Positions 48,220 through 59,208 of a stretch of 64,000 bases of DNA are shown one piece after another (position 1 is the first letter of the stretch; each line of letters begins with the position of its first letter). The notes under the pieces were generated by a model. It was not told the DNA's origin and made no database searches. It was given only the letters and a program-made list of their open reading frames with translations. A program made the translations under genes and the position numbers. The stretch comes from Xiamenia xianingshaonis (lineage in GTDB: Bacteria > Actinomycetota > Coriobacteriia > Coriobacteriales > Eggerthellaceae): positions 930,001 through 994,000 of the forward strand of contig NZ_CP072829.1 of assembly GCF_017945865.1 (NCBI RefSeq). The letters run 5' to 3'.

Positions 48220-50469
48220 CTATCCGAGCCAAACGCCGGAGGGGGAGAAGTACTCGACGCTGCCGTCCACGACGCGCCGGCCTGTGGCCATGGCGCCCGA
48301 TCCGTCAAGCCAGTACCACGCGCCGCCGTCCTTCAGCCAGCCCGTCTTCATGGCGCCGGAGCTGTCGAGCCAATACCACTTTCCGCCGACGCTCGCCCAA
48401 CCCGTGCGCATGGCGCCCGAGCCGTCCAGGTAATACCATTTTCCGCCGTCCTTCAGCCAGCCGGTCTGCATGGCGCCTGATGAATTCGCATAATACCACG
48501 TTCCACTGACACGGAACCATCCGGTCGCCATCGCGCCGCTCGACGGCTTCAGCCAGTACCACACGCCGCCCTTTTTCAGCCAGCCGGTGTCCATCGCGCC
48601 GCTCGATCCCAGGTGGTACCAGGTGTTGCCGTCCTTGAGCCAGCCCGTGGCCATCGCGCCGTTCGACGGCGCCAGCCAGTACCACGCGCCGCCGTCGAGG
48701 ATCCAGCCGGTCTGCATGACGCCGGCGCTGTCGAAGAAATACCACTTGTTGTCGATGAGCTGCCAGCCGAGGGCCGCATACGCCGTGACGGGGTCGTAGT
48801 AGCGCCGAAGGCCGTCGTCGTTCACCCAGCCCGTAACCATGGCGCCCGACTCGTCGAAAAGGTAGCGCGTGCCGCTGATCGTCTGCCAGCCGGTGAGCTT
48901 GTCGCCGGCCTTGTCGAGCCGATACCACGTGCCGCTGTCGCAGACCCAGGCGTTGCGCGAGGGCTTCGCTGCGTTCTCGAACCAATACGTCTTGCTATCG
49001 GCTTCATGCCAGCCGAACAGCGGGTAGGGCCGTCCGTTCAGCGTTGAGAACGCATAGGGCGTCTTGTCATAGGCATCCAGGTAGGGCATGCCGTCCTCGA
49101 CGTTGACTGTGATGGCTCCCTCCGGCGCAAATTCCGCGATCATCGCTGGGTAGCCATGCTTCGCTGCGGGGTAGGCTCCGTACACCTGGGTGTCGAAGAT
49201 GCGCAGGATCTGGTCGGTCTCGGTCGAAATTCTGGCTTCGGGGCCGGTGAGGAAGGCGTAGCGCGGCTCGATGGCCGCTATGAGGGCCGGCGTGTTCGAT
49301 CCGGCGTAGCCGTGGTGGGCGAGCTTGATCACGTCGACGCGCCCCAACTTCTGCGCCAGCCGCTGCTCGTCGCCGTCGTTGTCGGTGATGTCGCCGGCCA
49401 GAAACGCATGGCTGTCAAACGCGCGGGCCGACACGCCCCAGCAAAAGTCGTTGCAGTCGTTCGCGCCGAGCGTCTTGTACGAAACGTCTTCGAAGTTGAC
49501 GATCTCGATGTCGAAGGCGCCGAGCGAAAACGTCGGCCGCCCGGTATGGGGCGGAAACACCGGCTCCTCGGGGTCGGGGACGTCAGGCCCGTCTCCCGTT
49601 CCGGTCCCGGGCGTCTCGTCGCCCTCGTCCGCTTCGCCTTCGGAATCGCTCGGATCGGTCTGGTCGTCCGGATCGGTCGCGTCCTCAGAATCGCTCGGAT
49701 CGGCAGGGTCGTCCTGATTTTCGGGGTTGGCAGGATCGCTCGGGTCGTTGGGACTGGCCGGATCGTCCGGGTTGTCGGGGTCGCTTGGATCGTCGGGGTT
49801 TTCCGGGTCGTCCGGATCGGTCGGCTCGTCGTACTCGTGCGGTACGAGAGGGGCCGTCGCATCCAGGTTGAGGATGACGGGAATGTCCAGCTCGTCGGCG
49901 GCTGCAAGCATCTGGTCGTAGACGTACTGGTTGTCCCACAGCCGGTCTGGGTTCAAAATGTAGCCGTCGGAATACTCGGGCACGTAGACCCGGGTCGGCT
50001 TGAACGCGCGGATGATCTCGTCGGCCGACCCGATGTGGTCGCTGTGGGGGTGCGTTCCCAGGTAGAACTCGAGGTTCGTCTCGTTGACGCCGAGCCCTTC
50101 CAGATACGCGATCACCTCGGCTTCGCGTCCGTTGCCATGGACGATGCCGGGGCGGTCAGGATAGCGCGGGTCGCTGCCGTCGGGGCGGTCGTTGTCTTCG
50201 CCCGAGTCGACGATGCCGAAGCGCCCCTGGCTTTCCAACACGATGCAATCGGTGTACTCGAAAGGCAGCACGTGGATGCGCGTCGGGCCGTCGTCCGTGC
50301 TGGTAGGGGGGTTGTCGGCGAAGGCGGGGGCATGCGGGGCGAGTGCCAGGCAAACGGCCAGGGCGAAGGCCGAGGCAAGCGGCGCGAAACGAGAAACGAG
50401 GCAAGACGGCCGCAAAGCGCGATGCGCGGTCAAAGCGCCCGAAAACGGCGCATGGTGCCCAAAGAGCAT
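48220..50469 (-). CDS. Secreted MBL-fold protein with choline-binding repeats and an acidic insert
   Basis: A 749-residue exported protein. The signal peptide ends near APAFADN. A metallo-beta-lactamase domain follows, with the HxHxDH motif THPHSDHIG (139-147) and KLAHHGYAGSN downstream, the ComEC/Rec2-like branch of MBL proteins. About 85 Asp/Pro/Glu-rich residues (about 213-296, such as DPDDPENPDDPSDP) interrupt the MBL fold. The end (about 500-749) is about ten WYY-type wall-binding repeats, such as GWLKDGGKWYYLDGSGAM. The start ATG has GAAGGGA upstream. It is divergent from the autolysin gene. Enzymatic substrate unknown. Confidence 0.85.
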   Translation of the reverse strand: MLFGHHAPFSGALTAHRALRPSCLVSRFAPLASAFALAVCLALAPHAPAFADNPPTSTDDGPTRIHVLPFEYTDCIVLESQGRFGIVDSGEDNDRPDGSDPRYPDRPGIVHGNGREAEVIAYLEGLGVNETNLEFYLGTHPHSDHIGSADEIIRAFKPTRVYVPEYSDGYILNPDRLWDNQYVYDQMLAAADELDIPVILNLDATAPLVPHEYDEPTDPDDPENPDDPSDPDNPDDPASPNDPSDPANPENQDDPADPSDSEDATDPDDQTDPSDSEGEADEGDETPGTGTGDGPDVPDPEEPVFPPHTGRPTFSLGAFDIEIVNFEDVSYKTLGANDCNDFCWGVSARAFDSHAFLAGDITDNDGDEQRLAQKLGRVDVIKLAHHGYAGSNTPALIAAIEPRYAFLTGPEARISTETDQILRIFDTQVYGAYPAAKHGYPAMIAEFAPEGAITVNVEDGMPYLDAYDKTPYAFSTLNGRPYPLFGWHEADSKTYWFENAAKPSRNAWVCDSGTWYRLDKAGDKLTGWQTISGTRYLFDESGAMVTGWVNDDGLRRYYDPVTAYAALGWQLIDNKWYFFDSAGVMQTGWILDGGAWYWLAPSNGAMATGWLKDGNTWYHLGSSGAMDTGWLKKGGVWYWLKPSSGAMATGWFRVSGTWYYANSSGAMQTGWLKDGGKWYYLDGSGAMRTGWASVGGKWYWLDSSGAMKTGWLKDGGAWYWLDGSGAMATGRRVVDGSVEYFSPSGVWLG

Positions 50470-50631
50470 GCGATCCCTTCTTTCTATACGGTGTGTGTCG
50501 GAAGCGTTTAGTATATGGGATTGCTGCGATGCCATGTGGCGATTGTCGTTTGACAGCTGGTATACTTCTTGAGAATTTCGTATTTGCATCGATGCCGAAC
50601 CGACCGGGTTCGCTTGTCACGGAGGTCACGC

Positions 50632-53600
50632 ATGTCTCTTCGCGCAAAGCTTTCACGGGCGCTGCTCGCGCTCATAGTCGCCTGTTCCCTGTGCCCCCTT
50701 CCCGCCTATGCCGACGATGCCGACACGTCGGCATCGTCGTCTTTGCCGGCTGAAATTACTGCGCCGGAAGAGCGCGATGCCAAAGCCGAAGTCGACGCTT
50801 CGGTTCCGTCGGCTGACGAGGGCGTTCCGGACGAAGCTGTGGCCGTCACAGCAGCCGCAGCGCCTGACGAGGGCGCTGCAAGCGACGAAGGCACCGACGC
50901 AGCGCCGCAGGCGGCCGAGGAAGCGGACGACCAGGCAGAAGGAGCTGACGCCGAAGAGCCTGCCACTTCGGAATCCGTCGGCTTCGTCTACTTCGATCTG
51001 GAGGCTCCCGCCGTCGGCCAGACGCAGACGGTCGTCGTCGCCACCGACGACGAGGCCGACGTGCTTGCAACGGGCACGCTGGAACTCGTCTCTCCGTCGG
51101 GCGAGCGCATCGAGGCCGCATCCGTCGGCGCGGACGGCAATGCGCTCGCCTTCGAGGTTGCCGTCGAAGAGGCCGGCGACTACGTGCTGAAGACGGCGCA
51201 GGTCGAAACCGCGTCGGGCGACGCCCGCACGCTTTCGCTTGCCGCCGACGGGCAGCCGTGCTCGTTCGGGGCGGTCGAGCCTCAGGCCGGTATCGAGGCC
51301 CTTGCTCAGGTCGACGGCGCCGAAAACATGGACGTGTCGGTGTATGCGCTCGACGAAGACGGCGAGCTGGCTCCTGCGGCGTCGCTCGAGCAGACGGCGG
51401 CCGAGGTGGCCGGCGAGGTCGCGCGGGTTTCGGCCCGCAGCGCCCGCGCCCGCAACGACGAGTTCGTCGTCGCGCTCGACGCGGGGCACGGCGGCAACGA
51501 CGGCGGCGCCAGCGCCTACGGCTTGAAGGAGTCCGACGTCACCTGGGGCATCACGACGTATTGCAAGCAGTATCTGGAGGCCCACTCGAAGGCCCGCGTC
51601 GTTTTGGTCCGCGGCAAAAACGAAAACCCTGGCTTGTCCGAGCGCGTGCAGCGGGCCGTCAACCAGGGTGCCGACGTGTTCGTGAGCCTGCACATCAATT
51701 CGGCCGCCGCCACGTCGGCCCAGGGCGCTGAAGTGTGGTATCCCAACAGCAGCTCGTACCGCTACGACCTGCATGTCGAGGGCAACAAGCTGGCGTCGAG
51801 CATCCAGCAGCGGCTGGTGGCGCTTGGCCTGAAAGACCGCGGCGTGAAGGTGAAAAACGCCACGGGCAACTGGTATTACCCTGACGGGTCGCTGCAGGAC
51901 TACTACACGGTCATCCAGCGCTCGCGCGAGGCCGGCATCGTCGGCATCATCGTCGAGCACGCCTTCATTTCCAACAAGGCGGAAAACGCCAAGCTCGCCA
52001 CGGCGTCGTTCCAAAAGCAGCTCGGCTACGCCGACGCCCAGGGCATCATCGCTGCCTACGGCATCGGCGGCTCTGGCTCCGGTTCCGGTTCCGGTTCCGG
52101 AGGCGGCAATTCGGTTCCGGATATGTCGGCGCCTTCGCCGTGGGTGCAGGAAAACGGCCGTTGGAAGCTGAAGGACCCCGGCGGCGCGTTCGTGAAAAGC
52201 CAGTGGCAGAGAGTCGACGGGAAGTGGTACTACTTTGACGCCAACGGCTACGCCCTGACCGGCTTTCAGACGGTGGAGGGCTCGCGCTACTACTTCGATT
52301 CCAACGGCGTCATGCACACCGGCTGGTTCACCGTCGGCAAGACCTGGCACTACGCCAACCCGTCCGGCGCTCTGGTCACCGGCTGGGCCACCATTGGCGG
52401 CGCGCGCTACTACCTGAAGGGCGGCAACGGCGACATGGTGTCCGGCGTGCAGAAGATCGACGGCACGTGGCGCGTGTTCCAGCCGTCCGGCGCCCTGGTC
52501 ACCGGCAAAGGCTGGAAGAAGGCGGGCGGCAAGTGGTACTACTTCAACGCCTCGGGCGCGCCTGCCACGGGCTGGAAGAAGCTTTCCGGCACGTGGTACT
52601 ACCTGAATCCCACGACCGGCATCATGGCGACGGGCTGGACCCTGGTCGACGGCAAATGGTACTGGATGTACTCGTCCGGCGCCATGCGCGGCAAGGGGTG
52701 GCTGAAGCTGAAAGGGAAGTGGTACTATCTGACCTCCTCCGGCGCCATGAAGACCGGCTGGCTGAAGCTTTCCGGCACGTGGTACTACCTGTGGTCCTCT
52801 GGCGTCATGGCCAGCGGCGGCTGGGGCAAAGTGGGCAACGAGACGTACTGGTTTGCCGGTTCCGGCGCCATGCGCACCCAGGGTTGGTTCAAGCAGGGCG
52901 GCCACTGGTACTACATCACGTCAAGCGGCGCCCGCGCCACCGGCTGGAAAACCGTCGGCGGGAAGAAGTACTATTTCTGGTACGGCAACGGCTGCATGGC
53001 GACCGGCACGCCCGTCATCGGCAACGAGCGCTTCCAGTTCGACTCGTCCGGTGCCTTGGTGAAAAGCCTCGGGCGCGTGCAGACCGCCGTGACCGCGAAG
53101 CCTTCGCAGTCCTCCGCCCCCGCAAAACCCGCCGCGTCCTCTTCGGCCATCATGGGCGCCTCGCTTGCCACGGTCAACCAGATGGTGGCCGACTTCAACT
53201 CCACGGGCAAGCCCTACCCGGCCTACAAGTACGCGAAGAAAGGCGCTCCCACCATACGCGACTTCTGCACCATCCTGCTCGCCGAGGCCAAGGCCGAAGG
53301 TGTGCGCGCCGAGGTCGTGTTTTGCCAGGCCATGAAGGAGACAGGCTGGCTGCAGTTCGGCGGCTCGGTCGACGCCAACGGCAAGGTGCAGTGCAACTTC
53401 GCCGGCCTGGGTGCCACCAGCGCCACCGTCGGCGGCGCCACGTTCGCCAACGTCCGTGAAGGCCTGCGCGCGCAGGTGCAGCACCTGAAGGCCTACGCGT
53501 CGACCGCTCCGCTTAAGAACAAGTGCGTCGACCCGCGCTTCTCCCTCGTCACGCGCGGGATCGCGCCCAACCTGGAAGACCTCAACGGCCGCTGGGCCGT

Positions 53601-53661
53601 CCCCGGCGACGGCTACGGCGAGTCCATCCTGGGGATGATAGGGGTGCTGCTGAAGAAGTAG
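50632..53661 (+). CDS. Secreted N-acetylmuramoyl-L-alanine amidase with choline-binding repeats and a GH73-type domain
   Basis: A 1009-residue exported autolysin. Domains in order: signal peptide (LIVACSLCPLPAYA), an acidic low-complexity region, an Ig-like domain (about 120-240), and Amidase_3 (about 276-476). The amidase domain has zinc ligands in LDAGHGGNDGG and SLHINSAA and a catalytic Glu in VEHAFISNKAE. A GS-rich linker follows, then about 13 WYY-type wall-binding repeats (about 500-816). A C-terminal glucosaminidase (GH73-like) domain (about 840-1009) has VFCQAMKETGWLQFGG and CNFAGLGATSA. It can in principle cut both peptide and glycan bonds of peptidoglycan. ATG follows GGAGG. Confidence 0.9.
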   Translation: MSLRAKLSRALLALIVACSLCPLPAYADDADTSASSSLPAEITAPEERDAKAEVDASVPSADEGVPDEAVAVTAAAAPDEGAASDEGTDAAPQAAEEADDQAEGADAEEPATSESVGFVYFDLEAPAVGQTQTVVVATDDEADVLATGTLELVSPSGERIEAASVGADGNALAFEVAVEEAGDYVLKTAQVETASGDARTLSLAADGQPCSFGAVEPQAGIEALAQVDGAENMDVSVYALDEDGELAPAASLEQTAAEVAGEVARVSARSARARNDEFVVALDAGHGGNDGGASAYGLKESDVTWGITTYCKQYLEAHSKARVVLVRGKNENPGLSERVQRAVNQGADVFVSLHINSAAATSAQGAEVWYPNSSSYRYDLHVEGNKLASSIQQRLVALGLKDRGVKVKNATGNWYYPDGSLQDYYTVIQRSREAGIVGIIVEHAFISNKAENAKLATASFQKQLGYADAQGIIAAYGIGGSGSGSGSGSGGGNSVPDMSAPSPWVQENGRWKLKDPGGAFVKSQWQRVDGKWYYFDANGYALTGFQTVEGSRYYFDSNGVMHTGWFTVGKTWHYANPSGALVTGWATIGGARYYLKGGNGDMVSGVQKIDGTWRVFQPSGALVTGKGWKKAGGKWYYFNASGAPATGWKKLSGTWYYLNPTTGIMATGWTLVDGKWYWMYSSGAMRGKGWLKLKGKWYYLTSSGAMKTGWLKLSGTWYYLWSSGVMASGGWGKVGNETYWFAGSGAMRTQGWFKQGGHWYYITSSGARATGWKTVGGKKYYFWYGNGCMATGTPVIGNERFQFDSSGALVKSLGRVQTAVTAKPSQSSAPAKPAASSSAIMGASLATVNQMVADFNSTGKPYPAYKYAKKGAPTIRDFCTILLAEAKAEGVRAEVVFCQAMKETGWLQFGGSVDANGKVQCNFAGLGATSATVGGATFANVREGLRAQVQHLKAYASTAPLKNKCVDPRFSLVTRGIAPNLEDLNGRWAVPGDGYGESILGMIGVLLKK

Positions 53662-54634: not shown

Positions 54635-55048
54635 GCCTGTCTACCTCTGGGGCGGGAAGCGCCCGCATGGCCAAACGCCCCTGGCTGGGTCAAGTGTGCT
54701 TGGAATTGCCGCGAAGGGGAAGGCTGCAAGCCGTCGTTGTGAGTCGTTGGACGGCGGGTTCCGCTGCGAGGGCTTCGCTGGCTCGTGGGGTCTCCAGGTG
54801 TCCGGTGTTGGCTGTTTGCGGAACCCGCCTGCTGCAAGGTGGGCGTTCTCGCCGGCGGGGCTCGAAAGCGCCTGCCGCGGGGGTGGGAGCGCCCTTTCTC
54901 CAACAAACGAACACAATCGCAGCCCGGAAACCGCCTGGTGGGGGTCGTTTTGGGGACTCAGCCCCACAAAATGTTTTCCAACTGGGCCGATCTGTGGCAC
55001 AATGGGCGGCGTCCAATGTTGTGAACCCGAAATGAGAAAGGTCGATCT
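54635..55048. repeat. GC-rich intergenic repeat copy B and region upstream of the surface-protein gene
   Basis: Copy B of the repeat family lies at about 54700-54860, including GTTGGCTGTTTGCGG (54807-54821). After it comes a leader of about 190 bp holding a weak -10 (TGG-CACAAT, about 54995-55003). No gene is supported in this block. Confidence 0.5.
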
Positions 55049-55111
55049 ATGTCCAAGATCACTCCACTTTCTACGAAAACCTACGGGGGGGGGGCAAGGT
55101 TCTTAGCCTGA
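55049..55111 (+). other. Start of the surface-protein reading frame, cut off by a frameshift
   Basis: An ATG with an excellent ribosome site (AAAGG, seven-base spacing) opens a 20-codon frame ending at TGA 55109-55111. Its last normal codons run into a ten-G run. In the other frame the downstream sequence reads KVLSLILAGTLALGMTPA, a typical secretion signal that joins directly to the giant protein that follows. So this looks like the true 5' end of that gene, out of frame by one base. Confidence 0.75.
55085..55094 (+). repeat. Homopolymeric tract of ten G, candidate phase-variation switch
   Basis: Ten consecutive G lie 36 bases after the start codon at 55049. With 8 or 11 G the start and signal peptide are in frame with the giant protein; with 9 or 10 G translation stops within a few codons. 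Such tracts mutate at high rate by slipped-strand mispairing. Confidence 0.8.
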
Positions 55112-55137
55112 TCCTTGCAGGCACCCTCGCCCTCGGC

Positions 55138-58100
55138 ATGACCCCCGCCGCCGCCCTGACCCAGGCGGCGATGGACGTCACCCCCGCTTATGCGGTGGAT
55201 ACCACCGAGGACAGAGTCCTCGATGCGACGGTCGCTATTCCCGTGGATGCCGACAAGGTGGGTGATGCTACCCATGATCCCGCTGGCATGGGTTGGCAGT
55301 TGCCTACTGTTAGTGGGGCGAGTACTGATGTCTCTCTTCCGTATACGGGCGAGGACCAGAAGGATTCTCCTAAGATAACCGCCGGCGTTACCCTCGGTGA
55401 TGTTCAGTACAAGTACTACGCTACAGGTAACAACGACAAGACAACCATCAACTATACCGTTCCTCAAAGCTATTTGACGCCTACTTTCTTCACCACTACC
55501 GGTGGCAGCCCGACTTCTGTGTCCGAGGTCAAGAATGTGGGCGATTACACGGTGAAGTACCAGGTCGCCGCTCCTGATGGCGTTGCGGCTGTGCCGGGCT
55601 TCACAAGTGGCATTGCTGGTCTAAACGGCCAGCTTGAATCTGCTCCGACTAATACCCGCGCTCTGAAGATCACTGCGGCCACCGCCACAGTCGAGGTTCC
55701 GCCCACGGCCATTCTCGGCGTTGCGACGCCGGAATCCATCGCCAAGTCCGTCGTCGTCGAAGGCGTCGGGAACGACGAGCTGAAGTACGACACCGACTAC
55801 ACGGTTGCCATCAATGATGAAAACGGCAGCCCTCTGACTGGGTCTGGCGCCATCACGGAGCCTCAAACCGTCACGGTGGTTGTGGCTCTCAAGCCGGGCT
55901 CAGCTCTTGCAGGGAACTACGTCCTTCCCGCCAGCTATCCTAACAAGGTCGCCGTCAAGGCCTCCGGCACCTACGAGGCGAGCTTCGTCAACGACAAGAC
56001 CAACAATCCGACTCTCGAGGCAACCAGCGGCGGCAAGTCCGCGACCGTCGCCTGGGATAGCAGGGCGAATAATATAGATGATGCCGTGGAGAAAGGCCTC
56101 ACGGTCATGTCCGGCAAGACGAAGCTGGACTACGTAGTGAACAATCCGGCCAGTAGCGCCTACAAGATCGCCTACACCAACGCTGCGGGCGAGCCCATGT
56201 TGGAGGCCGACGGCGTCACGCCGGACACGCCTTCGCTTCCCGGCAACTACGGCGTGGCCGTGACCGTCAACGGCGAGTCGAAGCCGTTCGCCACGCTTGG
56301 CCTGAAGGTGGTCGCCGACCTCGGAAAAGACGTCAGCTACAAGGTGGGAGGCTATGATACCGCCACCGAAACGGTTCGCCTGCTCTGGGACAAAGACCTG
56401 GCCGACGATCCGGCGGCGCGCGACGCTTACGTCGTTGAGCAGATCAAGGAAGGCTTCTCGGCCGCTCTCAAAAATAGTCCCACCAACACTCCCGTCAGCG
56501 TCGACGACCTGCTGTTCGAGGTGACCACTACGGTCAATTCCCCGAACGGCGGCACCGGCGTCGTGACGGTGAAGCCGGCCAGCCCGTCGGGCCTGTACGT
56601 CGGCAACTGCGCCATCAAGTACGGCTACGGCGACGTCATGCCGGCGTTCGGCCTGAAAAAGGCCTCCGAGCCTTACAACGACACTGTCGGATATACGGTG
56701 AACGAGCTGGTCAAGGTGCCTGTCGTGCAGGGGTCTGACGGCAAGCCTGGCGACTTCAGCGATTACTCCGTCATCGCCAAATATGTGAACGCCGATGGCA
56801 AGACCGTCACCGTTGAGGGTGCGAACAAGATCACCAATGTGGGCGACTACCAGATCGTCGTGAGCGGTACGGGCACCTATGCCGGGTCCCAGGCGTTCGA
56901 CTTCAAGATCGACCCGCGCCCCATTACCAAGGGCGAAGTGAGCTGGTTCGGGAACGAGTCGGGCGTGGAATACGACTCGAAAGACAAGGTCTGGTACCTC
57001 ACCTACAAGGGCACCGCTCTCGAGCCGGCGCCCAAGGTGTCCGTGATGCTGACCGATAAATCCAACGTCGACCTGGTCGACAAGGCGAGCCGCACCGAGG
57101 AACAGGTCGAAGCCGATGCTCCTTGGGACTACGAGGTTTCCTGGTCCAACAACACCAACGTCGGCACCGCCACGGCGACGGTGACGTTCTCCGGCAACTA
57201 CTCCGGCACGGTCGAGCTGCCCTTTGAGATCGTCGGCTCGAGCCTGAACGACCTGAAGGCCACGGCGACCGCCCAGAGCCAGCTGGCCGAAGGCTTCCCG
57301 GCTAACCCGACGGGCGAAGATGTTCTGAACCCGGTCGTCTCGTACAGCACGGTCGTCAACGGCAAGAAGAAGACTATCGAGCTCGATCCCGAGGACTACG
57401 TCATCAAGAGCGTGACCAAAGGCGTGACCGGGGCCGACGGCGTGACCTCCTACACGTTTGTGGTCGAGGGCCAGGGCAACTACTCCGGCACCATCGAGGG
57501 CGCGTTCAACACGGTTCCGAAAGCCAAGGACATCTCCACGCTGTGGACGGTCGACGTGGCCGCTGGTAACTACTTCTACCAGATGGGCGAGCCGGTCGAG
57601 GCCGGCGTGGTCGTGAAGACCAAGCCTGCCACGAGTTCTGCCACCGGCTCGCCGGTCTCCCAGACCGCTCCCGGCCAGAAGACCCCGAACTACCGCGTGA
57701 CCTACAAGGACAACGTCGACGCCGGTACGGCGACGGTCATCGTCTCGGGCGACGGGCAGTATGCCGGCTCCATCGAGAAGACCTTCGAGATCGCGCCTTT
57801 GCAGATCTCGCAGGAATCCGCCGCTAACGTCGACCTGTCGCAGGAGTCTTTCGTCTACGCCCCCGGCATTGAGGCCAAGCCCGAGGTGGTCATGGGCACC
57901 TCGGAGATCACGCCTGTGAACGAAGGCTACGACGGCGGCGCCGTCAAGCTGAAGGAGATCGTCGATGATATCGCGGTCACCTACGCGAACAACACCGCTG
58001 CTGGCACCGCCCAGGCGATCATCTCCGGCAAAGAGGGCGGCAACGTCTCCGGCTCCTACGCGGTCGACTTCGAGATCGCCCAGGCCGACATCGCCGACGC

Positions 58101-59208
58101 GACCGTCGAGGCCGCCAACGTGGTTCCGGGCGCTTCCGCGGCCGACGCGGTGAAGGTCACGCTCGGCGACGACGTGCTCGCCGCCGGCACCGACTACACG
58201 GTGGCCGCCGAGGGCGCGCTTCCGGGCAAGGTGACCGCGACCGTCACCGGCACGGGCAACTACACCGGCACGGCCACGGCCGACGTCGACGTGCTCTACG
58301 ACGTGGCGGGCCTCAGCTACAAGGTGTCCTCCGGCACCTACAACGGCCAGTCCCAGACGCCGGTCGTGACGGCCTCCTACAAGGACGCCGCCGGCAAGAC
58401 CGTCGAGGTCCCGGCCTCCGCGCTGAACGTGGCCGCCGGCTCCTACGTCAACGCCGGCACCTACAAGATCAAGGTCACCGGCAACAACGCCGCCGGCTGG
58501 GGCGGAGAGACGACGGTCGACTACACCATCGCGCCCGCGACGGTCACGGCCAAGCCCCAGGTGTCCTACGCGGGCGGCCTGCCGGTCGTCACGGTGCCCG
58601 GCCTGACCTCGAACGACTTCGACTGGAAGGCCGATGCGGCCACCAAGACCATCACCGTGACCTACAAGGGCAACTACAAGGGCACGGCGAAGGTGGCCTA
58701 CACGCCGACCGTGGCCCCCGGCGACCCCGGCTCCGTGGCCGGCAAGACCGGCTGGGTGGGCTCCGGCAACGACTGGGCCTACTACGAGGGCGGCAAGCAG
58801 GTCAAGGACCAGTGGAAGCTCATCGGCGGCGAGTGGTACCACTTCGAGAAGAGCGGCAAGATGACCAACACGAAGTGGTTCCAGGACACGGACGGCGAGT
58901 GGTACCTGCTGAACCAGTCCCACAAGGGAAGCTACGGGGCCATGCTCACCGGCTGGCAGAAGGTCGACGGCGGCTGGTACTACCTGAACAAGTCCGGCGC
59001 CATGCAGTCCGGCTGGCTCAAGGACGGCGGCGAGTGGTACCTGCTCAACACCGCCCACGACGGCACGTTCGGCAAGATGCTCACCGGCTGGCAGCAGGAC
59101 GCCGACGGCAAGTGGTACTACATGGACGCCTCCGGCGCCATGGCCTCCAACGCGTGGGTCGGCCGCTACTGGGTCAACGGCTCCGGCGTGTGGACGGCCA
59201 CCCGCTAG
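55138..59208 (+). CDS. Giant secreted surface protein with Ig-like repeats and choline-binding repeats
   Basis: A 1356-residue open frame whose real start probably lies upstream at 55049, in a frame disrupted by the ten-G tract. The first ATG here (55138) has no ribosome site and removes most of the signal peptide. The body is an array of Ig-like/strand-rich repeats of the type GTATVIVSGDGQYAGSIEKT, seen at least six times with variation. The last 155 residues (about 1200-1356) are about five wall-binding WYY repeats, such as GWQKVDGGWYYLNKSGAM. The protein is predicted to sit on the cell surface. No enzyme domain was recognised. Binding partner unknown. Confidence 0.8.
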   Translation: MTPAAALTQAAMDVTPAYAVDTTEDRVLDATVAIPVDADKVGDATHDPAGMGWQLPTVSGASTDVSLPYTGEDQKDSPKITAGVTLGDVQYKYYATGNNDKTTINYTVPQSYLTPTFFTTTGGSPTSVSEVKNVGDYTVKYQVAAPDGVAAVPGFTSGIAGLNGQLESAPTNTRALKITAATATVEVPPTAILGVATPESIAKSVVVEGVGNDELKYDTDYTVAINDENGSPLTGSGAITEPQTVTVVVALKPGSALAGNYVLPASYPNKVAVKASGTYEASFVNDKTNNPTLEATSGGKSATVAWDSRANNIDDAVEKGLTVMSGKTKLDYVVNNPASSAYKIAYTNAAGEPMLEADGVTPDTPSLPGNYGVAVTVNGESKPFATLGLKVVADLGKDVSYKVGGYDTATETVRLLWDKDLADDPAARDAYVVEQIKEGFSAALKNSPTNTPVSVDDLLFEVTTTVNSPNGGTGVVTVKPASPSGLYVGNCAIKYGYGDVMPAFGLKKASEPYNDTVGYTVNELVKVPVVQGSDGKPGDFSDYSVIAKYVNADGKTVTVEGANKITNVGDYQIVVSGTGTYAGSQAFDFKIDPRPITKGEVSWFGNESGVEYDSKDKVWYLTYKGTALEPAPKVSVMLTDKSNVDLVDKASRTEEQVEADAPWDYEVSWSNNTNVGTATATVTFSGNYSGTVELPFEIVGSSLNDLKATATAQSQLAEGFPANPTGEDVLNPVVSYSTVVNGKKKTIELDPEDYVIKSVTKGVTGADGVTSYTFVVEGQGNYSGTIEGAFNTVPKAKDISTLWTVDVAAGNYFYQMGEPVEAGVVVKTKPATSSATGSPVSQTAPGQKTPNYRVTYKDNVDAGTATVIVSGDGQYAGSIEKTFEIAPLQISQESAANVDLSQESFVYAPGIEAKPEVVMGTSEITPVNEGYDGGAVKLKEIVDDIAVTYANNTAAGTAQAIISGKEGGNVSGSYAVDFEIAQADIADATVEAANVVPGASAADAVKVTLGDDVLAAGTDYTVAAEGALPGKVTATVTGTGNYTGTATADVDVLYDVAGLSYKVSSGTYNGQSQTPVVTASYKDAAGKTVEVPASALNVAAGSYVNAGTYKIKVTGNNAAGWGGETTVDYTIAPATVTAKPQVSYAGGLPVVTVPGLTSNDFDWKADAATKTITVTYKGNYKGTAKVAYTPTVAPGDPGSVAGKTGWVGSGNDWAYYEGGKQVKDQWKLIGGEWYHFEKSGKMTNTKWFQDTDGEWYLLNQSHKGSYGAMLTGWQKVDGGWYYLNKSGAMQSGWLKDGGEWYLLNTAHDGTFGKMLTGWQQDADGKWYYMDASGAMASNAWVGRYWVNGSGVWTATR

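Follow-up and report, generated by a model that had tools for sequence, protein, structure and literature searches.

A probable poly-G-switched repertoire of choline-binding-repeat surface proteins in Xiamenia xianingshaonis

Start codon and signal peptide of locus 985k lie in different frames

The window analysed here is a stretch of 64,000 nucleotides, positions 930001-994000 of the 2.26-Mb single-contig genome of Xiamenia xianingshaonis (NZ_CP072829.1). Within it we examined a gene for a giant choline-binding-repeat protein (55049-59208 of the window) whose beginning contains a tract of ten G. Loci are named after their genome positions, this one being 985k. An earlier note on the same DNA had described an ATG with a strong ribosome site, followed by ten G and a signal peptide in a different frame; this arrangement is indeed present (Table 1), and both the taxon (Coriobacteriia) and the type of protein (choline-binding repeats) had been recognized correctly. 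As assembled, the start codon opens a 20-codon open reading frame (ORF; MSKITPLSTKTYGGGARFLA) that terminates at TGA 55109-55111, and the signal peptide belongs to another open frame, which covers 1370 codons (55096 to the stop at 59208). With G8 or G11, a single ORF of 1385 or 1386 codons results, in agreement with the note's arithmetic that 8 or 11 G fuse the frames and 10 G end translation after 20 codons. The giant ORF reported there is real, but its 1356 residues start from ATG 55138, which lies within the signal peptide. No other run of G or C in the window is longer than 6. Locus 985k is not a one-off: it belongs to a mosaic repertoire of 12-14 genes per genome.

Table 1. Features of locus 985k (window coordinates)
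Feature	Position	Strand	Remarks
Promoter-like element TTTCCA-N17-CACAAT	54975..55003	+	putative and weak, recognized by eye; CACAAT recurs in several paralogues
Shine-Dalgarno sequence AGAAAGG	55035..55041	+	7-nt spacer to ATG; (A)GAAAGG kept in 12/12 paralogues
ATG (55049-55051) and first 12 codons (MSKITPLSTKTY), signal-peptide n-region	55049..55084	+	sequence
G10 tract, proposed switch	55085..55094	+	followed by C, then AAG GTT CTT AGC CTG in the other frame
Stop trap	55104..55111	+	TAG 55104-55106 and TGA 55109-55111, one per wrong frame
Signal peptide h- and c-region KVLSLILAGTLALGMTPAAALTQAAMDVTPAYA	55096..55194	+	translation
Hypervariable front of mature protein	55195..57195	+	family pairwise identity mostly 19-36%; mainly beta-sandwich (immunoglobulin-like, Ig-like) predicted
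Semi-conserved Ig-like chain	57196..58737	+	31-71% identity, increasing toward C-terminus; swapped between paralogues by gene conversion
Choline-binding repeats (cell-wall anchor) and stop codon	58738..59208	+	71-88% identity within family

A dispersed family shares the leader and the tract position

A protein search of the window genome returned eleven further full or near-full paralogues of 985k, and the resulting 12 genes are dispersed across 0.35-2.05 Mb. With dnaA at position 550, all 12 point away from dnaA on both arms if the terminus lies at 0.99-1.39 Mb. The leader [KR]VL(S/G)(L/V)IL(A/S)G(T/S)LA(L/F)GM is common to all of them. In ten, a pure G tract occupies the identical codon position, its length being G9 (1745k, 2052k), G10 (351k, 985k, 1466k, 1485k, 1625k, 1750k), G11 (1641k) or G13 (1395k). 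Three of these ten genes are in frame (351k, 1052 codons; 1641k, 1410 codons; 1750k, 1377 codons), and the other seven (985k, 1395k, 1466k, 1485k, 1625k, 1745k and 2052k) end after 17-21 codons. The tract-free members 476k and 627k are both in frame and possess an equivalent leader built from mixed codons, with CGC GGC GGC AAT and GGA GGA GGG GGC, respectively, at the tract position (the latter codons belonging to the leader peptide KTYGGGGKVLS). From these two genes, the ON frame and the predicted joint are confirmed independently.

As for the genome at large, an overall excess of long G runs was rejected for runs of at least 9 (20 observed, about 18 expected), and runs of at least 10 are moderately in excess (13 observed versus 4.6 expected). 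Half of the 20 runs of at least 9 share one codon position in the 12-gene family. It is the placement of the tracts, rather than the number of runs, that is extraordinary.

The family is also present in the genus-mate Slackia sp. ZJ119, where 14 members were detected. Eleven of them contain G9 or G10 (two in frame, nine out of frame), and the three genes without a pure tract (CGCGGCGGCAAT, GCGGGAGGGGGC and CGGGGAGGGGGC) are all in frame. Pooled over both species, 5 of 21 tract genes (lengths 9-13) are in frame and 16 are out, which agrees with the one third expected for random lengths (P of five or fewer = 0.25); the tract-free genes are in frame in 5 of 5 cases, each with a leader peptide equivalent to that of the tract genes. 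Judged by flanking DNA, syntenic partners that both carry a tract are 985k-L139 (10 G in the window genome and 10 in ZJ119), 1395k-L134 (13/10), 1466k-L137 (10/9), 1485k-L141 (10/10) and 1745k-L142 (9/10), and less surely 1625k-L135 (10/9) and 1750k-L136 (10/10). The syntenic pair 1641k-L144 combines G11 in frame with G9 out of frame in ZJ119, and at the 351k locus G10 in the window genome stands against an interrupted in-frame sequence in ZJ119.

Clear family members were found in two of the four genomes of the genus. Beyond these two, a profile of the leader gave merely weak signal-peptide matches (E 9e-8 or worse) among 138 Eggerthellaceae genomes, a scan of genome contigs returned ZJ119 together with one weak and probably chance match in Lachnospiraceae, and viral contigs contained no family match. 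As no clear homologues were found outside the two genomes in the searched sets, the family appears to be genus-restricted and patchy.

Tract length varies while the OFF genes stay intact

Tract-length polymorphism was compared between paralogues and species, not inside one clone. Among 32 leader pairs with less than 6% divergence, tract length was unequal in 19 and other indels occurred in none, i.e. the tracts differ in length between conserved flanks. In 21 genes of the two species the tract is long enough to slip and sets the reading frame, and an intact ORF lies behind the OFF tracts: the seven OFF bodies of the window genome extend over 1331-1393 codons with no stop. The ratio of nonsynonymous to synonymous substitution rates (dN/dS) was 0.56-0.70 for OFF-OFF pairs with a common body versus 0.59-0.65 for ON-ON pairs, both well below 1.

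Directly after the tract, the sequence AAGGTTCT-TAG-CC-TGA provides a stop in each wrong frame within at most 16 nt. The complete pair occurs in 20 of the 21 tract genes and in none of the five tract-free genes; the TAG is missing from all five of the latter, leucine being encoded there by CTC or CTG. Tract and trap go together in every gene but 351k, whose ZJ119 partner is tract-free. As for site-specific inversion, only a 12-nt inverted repeat was found near the 985k leader, upstream of it, and there is thus no sign of an invertible switch. A promoter scan gave nothing above threshold at 985k, the element listed in Table 1 scoring below it.

MutS had no match in the window genome, nor in 60 genomes of Eggerthellaceae, and the search of the window genome for NucS yielded nothing over the cut-off, with a single sub-threshold match of 41 positions. 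A published survey likewise lists all analysed Coriobacteriia as lacking NucS and MutS-MutL (PMC5290159). With neither MutS nor NucS, slippage products should escape those repair systems, this being an expectation rather than a measured rate. The only MutL-like match (genome 1,119,968) was rejected as MutL, for it is a 369-aa GHKL-ATPase that scored below the cut-off and resembles the N-terminus of MutL only. The 369-codon MutL-like ORF (L161:1319-2425, genome about 1,119,818) adjoins a miaB-like gene in this genome without MutS.

Variable fronts are combined with conserved anchors

Identity between family members is 19-26% over residues 51-350, 22-45% over residues 351-900 and 71-88% over the last 170 residues. 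C-terminal choline-binding/cell-wall-binding repeats, by which choline-binding proteins are defined, were identified by PF01473 (67.6 bits, cut-off 20.5), PF19127 (64.8 bits, cut-off 27) and PF19085 (31.3 bits, cut-off 27), and they match Cbp/LytA structures in PDB. PspA and PspC were matched in the repeat region only (84 and 79 bits versus whole-protein cut-offs of 700-850). In an AlphaFold model (1182 aa) the protein forms a chain of beta-sandwich domains, with a mean predicted local distance difference test score (pLDDT) of 79 and a predicted template modelling score (pTM) of 0.38. A fold search with this model returned only Ig-like matches of a generic kind, among them biofilm-associated, invasin and S-layer proteins, with a best Z of 6.2; we therefore do not claim any binding function.

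Otherwise divergent genes share near-identical 3' parts: 1395k and 1466k (98.9% over 1254 bp), 1485k and 1745k (97.2% over 858 bp), and the tract gene 1750k and the tract-free 627k (98.5% over 1167 bp). Furthermore, the best match to the 2052k body is provided by the ZJ119 gene that occupies the tract-free, 476k-type locus (83.5%, 3966 aligned bases). Thus the loci have leaders and anchors in common and exchange their front parts, even when one locus is switchable and the other always on.

A model of slippage switching and its alternatives

We infer, with a probability of roughly 0.88, that 985k is one locus of an Opa-like, slippage-switched repertoire of phase-variable surface proteins. The ON/OFF phase variation by slippage proposed in the earlier note has thus gained support from 21 tract genes in two species, from tract-free relatives that are in frame, from intact OFF bodies and paired stops, and from the lack of MutS and NucS. 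According to the model, replication slippage in living cells would lengthen or shorten the G tract, which codes for 3-4 glycines of the signal-peptide n-region. The productive count would be n = 2 mod 3 after ...ACCTAC and 1 mod 3 where the tract is preceded by an extra C, in which case start, signal peptide and a ~1350-residue Ig-like choline-binding-repeat protein would form one ORF, and the product would be exported and held by the wall. With a non-productive count, translation would stop at TAG or TGA within 16 nt. As multiples of three alter only the number of glycines in the n-region, several tract lengths would be productive. Ten loci (11 in ZJ119) would switch independently, leading to many surface combinations per clone, with two to three tract-free members per genome remaining in frame alongside them. 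Recombination via the near-identical leaders and C-terminal anchors would shuffle the variable fronts, and the resulting diversity might be selected by host antibodies, phages or binding sites.

At slightly better than even odds, we also favour a more specific reading, combinatorial antigenic variation: at least ten switches would give up to ~1000 ON/OFF states per clone, the double stop would make OFF tight, slippage would go unchecked without MutS and NucS, and fronts would be renewed by recombination, including exchange between switchable and always-on genes. This would be the first full repertoire of this kind to be described in Coriobacteriia.

The 3' parts swapped between tract and tract-free genes (1750k-627k), as well as the resemblance of the body of tract gene 2052k to that at the tract-free 476k-type locus of ZJ119, would also be expected if the OFF copies were silent donors whose fronts pass by gene conversion to a few loci that are always on (351k, 476k, 627k), the tract mainly locking the donors. 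However, OFF genes retain promoter-like region, Shine-Dalgarno sequence, start and signal peptide, all needless for a silent archive. In addition, not all tract genes are out of frame, and their tract lengths vary in the manner predicted for slippage. This makes silent storage as the main role unlikely; donor conversion and slippage switching can act together. G runs of such length can slip in transcription or translation, and most tract copies are out of frame, as would suit programmed ribosomal frameshifting or transcriptional slippage that sets the full-length fraction regardless of the length in DNA. We consider this marginally less likely than silent donors, given that tract-free members are in frame, that the tract is variable rather than fixed among near-identical leaders, and that stops are present in both wrong frames instead of one fixed shift site.

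As for assembly or sequencing error, by which a tract of uniformly G8 or G11 in an ordinary constitutive surface protein would have been misread, G homopolymers are hard to read, and a study of Bifidobacterium breve reports that reads failed at G tracts and that a reference length was at odds with that of the main population (PMC9187656). The probability of this explanation appears lower again by a little: 16 of 21 tract genes are out of frame in two separate assemblies while all five tract-free genes are in frame, no frameshift occurs elsewhere in any complete member across 1000-1430 codons, and even with one-base errors pure G9-G13 tracts at this position would be real and unusual. The same 16 out-of-frame genes might be taken for decaying, frameshifted pseudogenes, yet OFF bodies contain no premature stop, their dN/dS (0.56-0.70) resembles that of in-frame genes, and leaders and anchors are conserved; degeneration is hence the least credible of these explanations.

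Several points nevertheless weigh against the slippage-switched repertoire. Surface display and choline-type wall binding of the 985k protein are predictions from family models. The dN/dS of the syntenic pairs with unlike bodies, 1466k-L137 and 1485k-L141, is about 0.9-1.0, a value probably explained by exchanged bodies that align poorly. Some leaders are kept alike by gene conversion, and the 21 tracts and their paired stops, the latter also owing to shared ancestry, are therefore not independent events. With one assembly per species, single tract lengths may be off by one, so that the ON/OFF state of each gene is provisional. Finally, some protein could be made in OFF states through slippage of the ribosome or during transcription. 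Our main conclusion is drawn from the pattern across 26 genes, not from the state of any one gene.

Further start codon, neighbouring genes and other poly-G tracts

At 985k, a second ATG (55032-55034) overlaps the Shine-Dalgarno sequence; in leaders of this type, G9 or G12 would bring it into frame (it is open in L086). It has no ribosome site of its own and could yield a low third expression level. Beside 985k, at 48220-53661 of the window, there are two further secreted choline-binding-repeat proteins, one metallo-beta-lactamase-like and one amidase-like, without G tracts.

Poly-G tracts were also seen at other genes. Another choline-binding-repeat protein (L039:580-589, genome 394379-394388) has G10 just past the signal peptide, out of frame as assembled and needing 9 or 12. 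In a further surface protein (L041, genome 1906452-1906460, minus strand), G9 directly behind the signal peptide is in frame; a ZJ119 relative (L159:599-608) contains G10 out of frame, and another relative (L160) is without a tract. This tract appears to be a second, differently placed poly-G switch. Two near-identical G9 tracts (L042, genome 2086143 and 2089980, minus strand) are located ~65 nt upstream of the genes for two paralogous cell-wall-binding proteins and are possible promoter or 5' untranslated region switches. Lastly, G13 (L162/L043, genome 2122989-2123001, minus strand) lies upstream of a response-regulator-like gene (MNRLAIVDDDKQ...), possibly a phase-variable regulator.

Comparison with known systems and implications

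Opa proteins are small outer-membrane barrels of Gram-negative bacteria with MutS, switched by CTCTT pentamer repeats in the signal-peptide coding region. The family described here resembles them in having paralogues that would switch independently via a repeat in the signal-peptide coding region, a conserved leader, hypervariable exposed parts and recombinational reassortment; it differs in its poly-G tracts, giant Ig-like choline-binding proteins, Gram-positive-type wall and lack of MutS. Dispersed paralogues with their own putative switches, a variable front and recombination between loci were all found; the likeness is one of the kind of system, not of homology. Neisseria gonorrhoeae and N. 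meningitidis contain about 11 dispersed Opa paralogues (PMC3745409).

Closer relatives offer other parallels. In B. breve, also an actinomycetotal gut commensal, pili are switched by an intragenic G11/G12-type tract whose in-frame length fuses two ORFs; slippage was demonstrated by maximum depth sequencing and was altered in mice. The system comprises two operons of sortase-dependent pili instead of a repertoire of paralogues, and the part of the report available to us describes no shared leader or mosaic family (PMC9187656). Gardnerella, of the same phylum, has many tracts of at least 8 bases tied to surface proteins, and their lengths were found to vary when colonies were Sanger-sequenced; the tracts lie mostly upstream of ORFs of assorted genes, and the anchors and the class are different (PMC11287997). 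Its surface proteins probably use the same kind of G-tract switch. Within the family Eggerthellaceae itself, the cell surface of Eggerthella lenta varies in phase by megabase inversions of a capsule locus, i.e. not by slippage and in the capsule, not in a protein (PMC13174815).

We found no report of slippage-switched surface proteins in Slackia or Coriobacteriia, which, given the partial literature coverage, is weak evidence of absence. Pneumococcal PspA, PspC and Cbp proteins likewise combine a variable exposed front with choline-binding repeats at the C-terminus (PF01473, PF19127, PF19085); to our knowledge, they do not constitute a homopolymer-switched repertoire of paralogues.

Antigen repertoires switched by repeats are a textbook feature of mucosal pathogens among the Gram-negative bacteria. 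A repertoire of this kind in a gut commensal, whose class has no known mismatch repair, suggests that such bet-hedging is shared by ordinary gut bacteria. In reference genomes, many genes of this type may be annotated as broken or short. Clones whose genomes are otherwise identical may also vary in strain phenotypes such as adhesion and sensitivity to antibodies and phages. The family also offers a natural setting for measuring homopolymer slippage without MutS and NucS. If the combinatorial reading is true, it would point to strong antibody or phage pressure on a harmless gut commensal.

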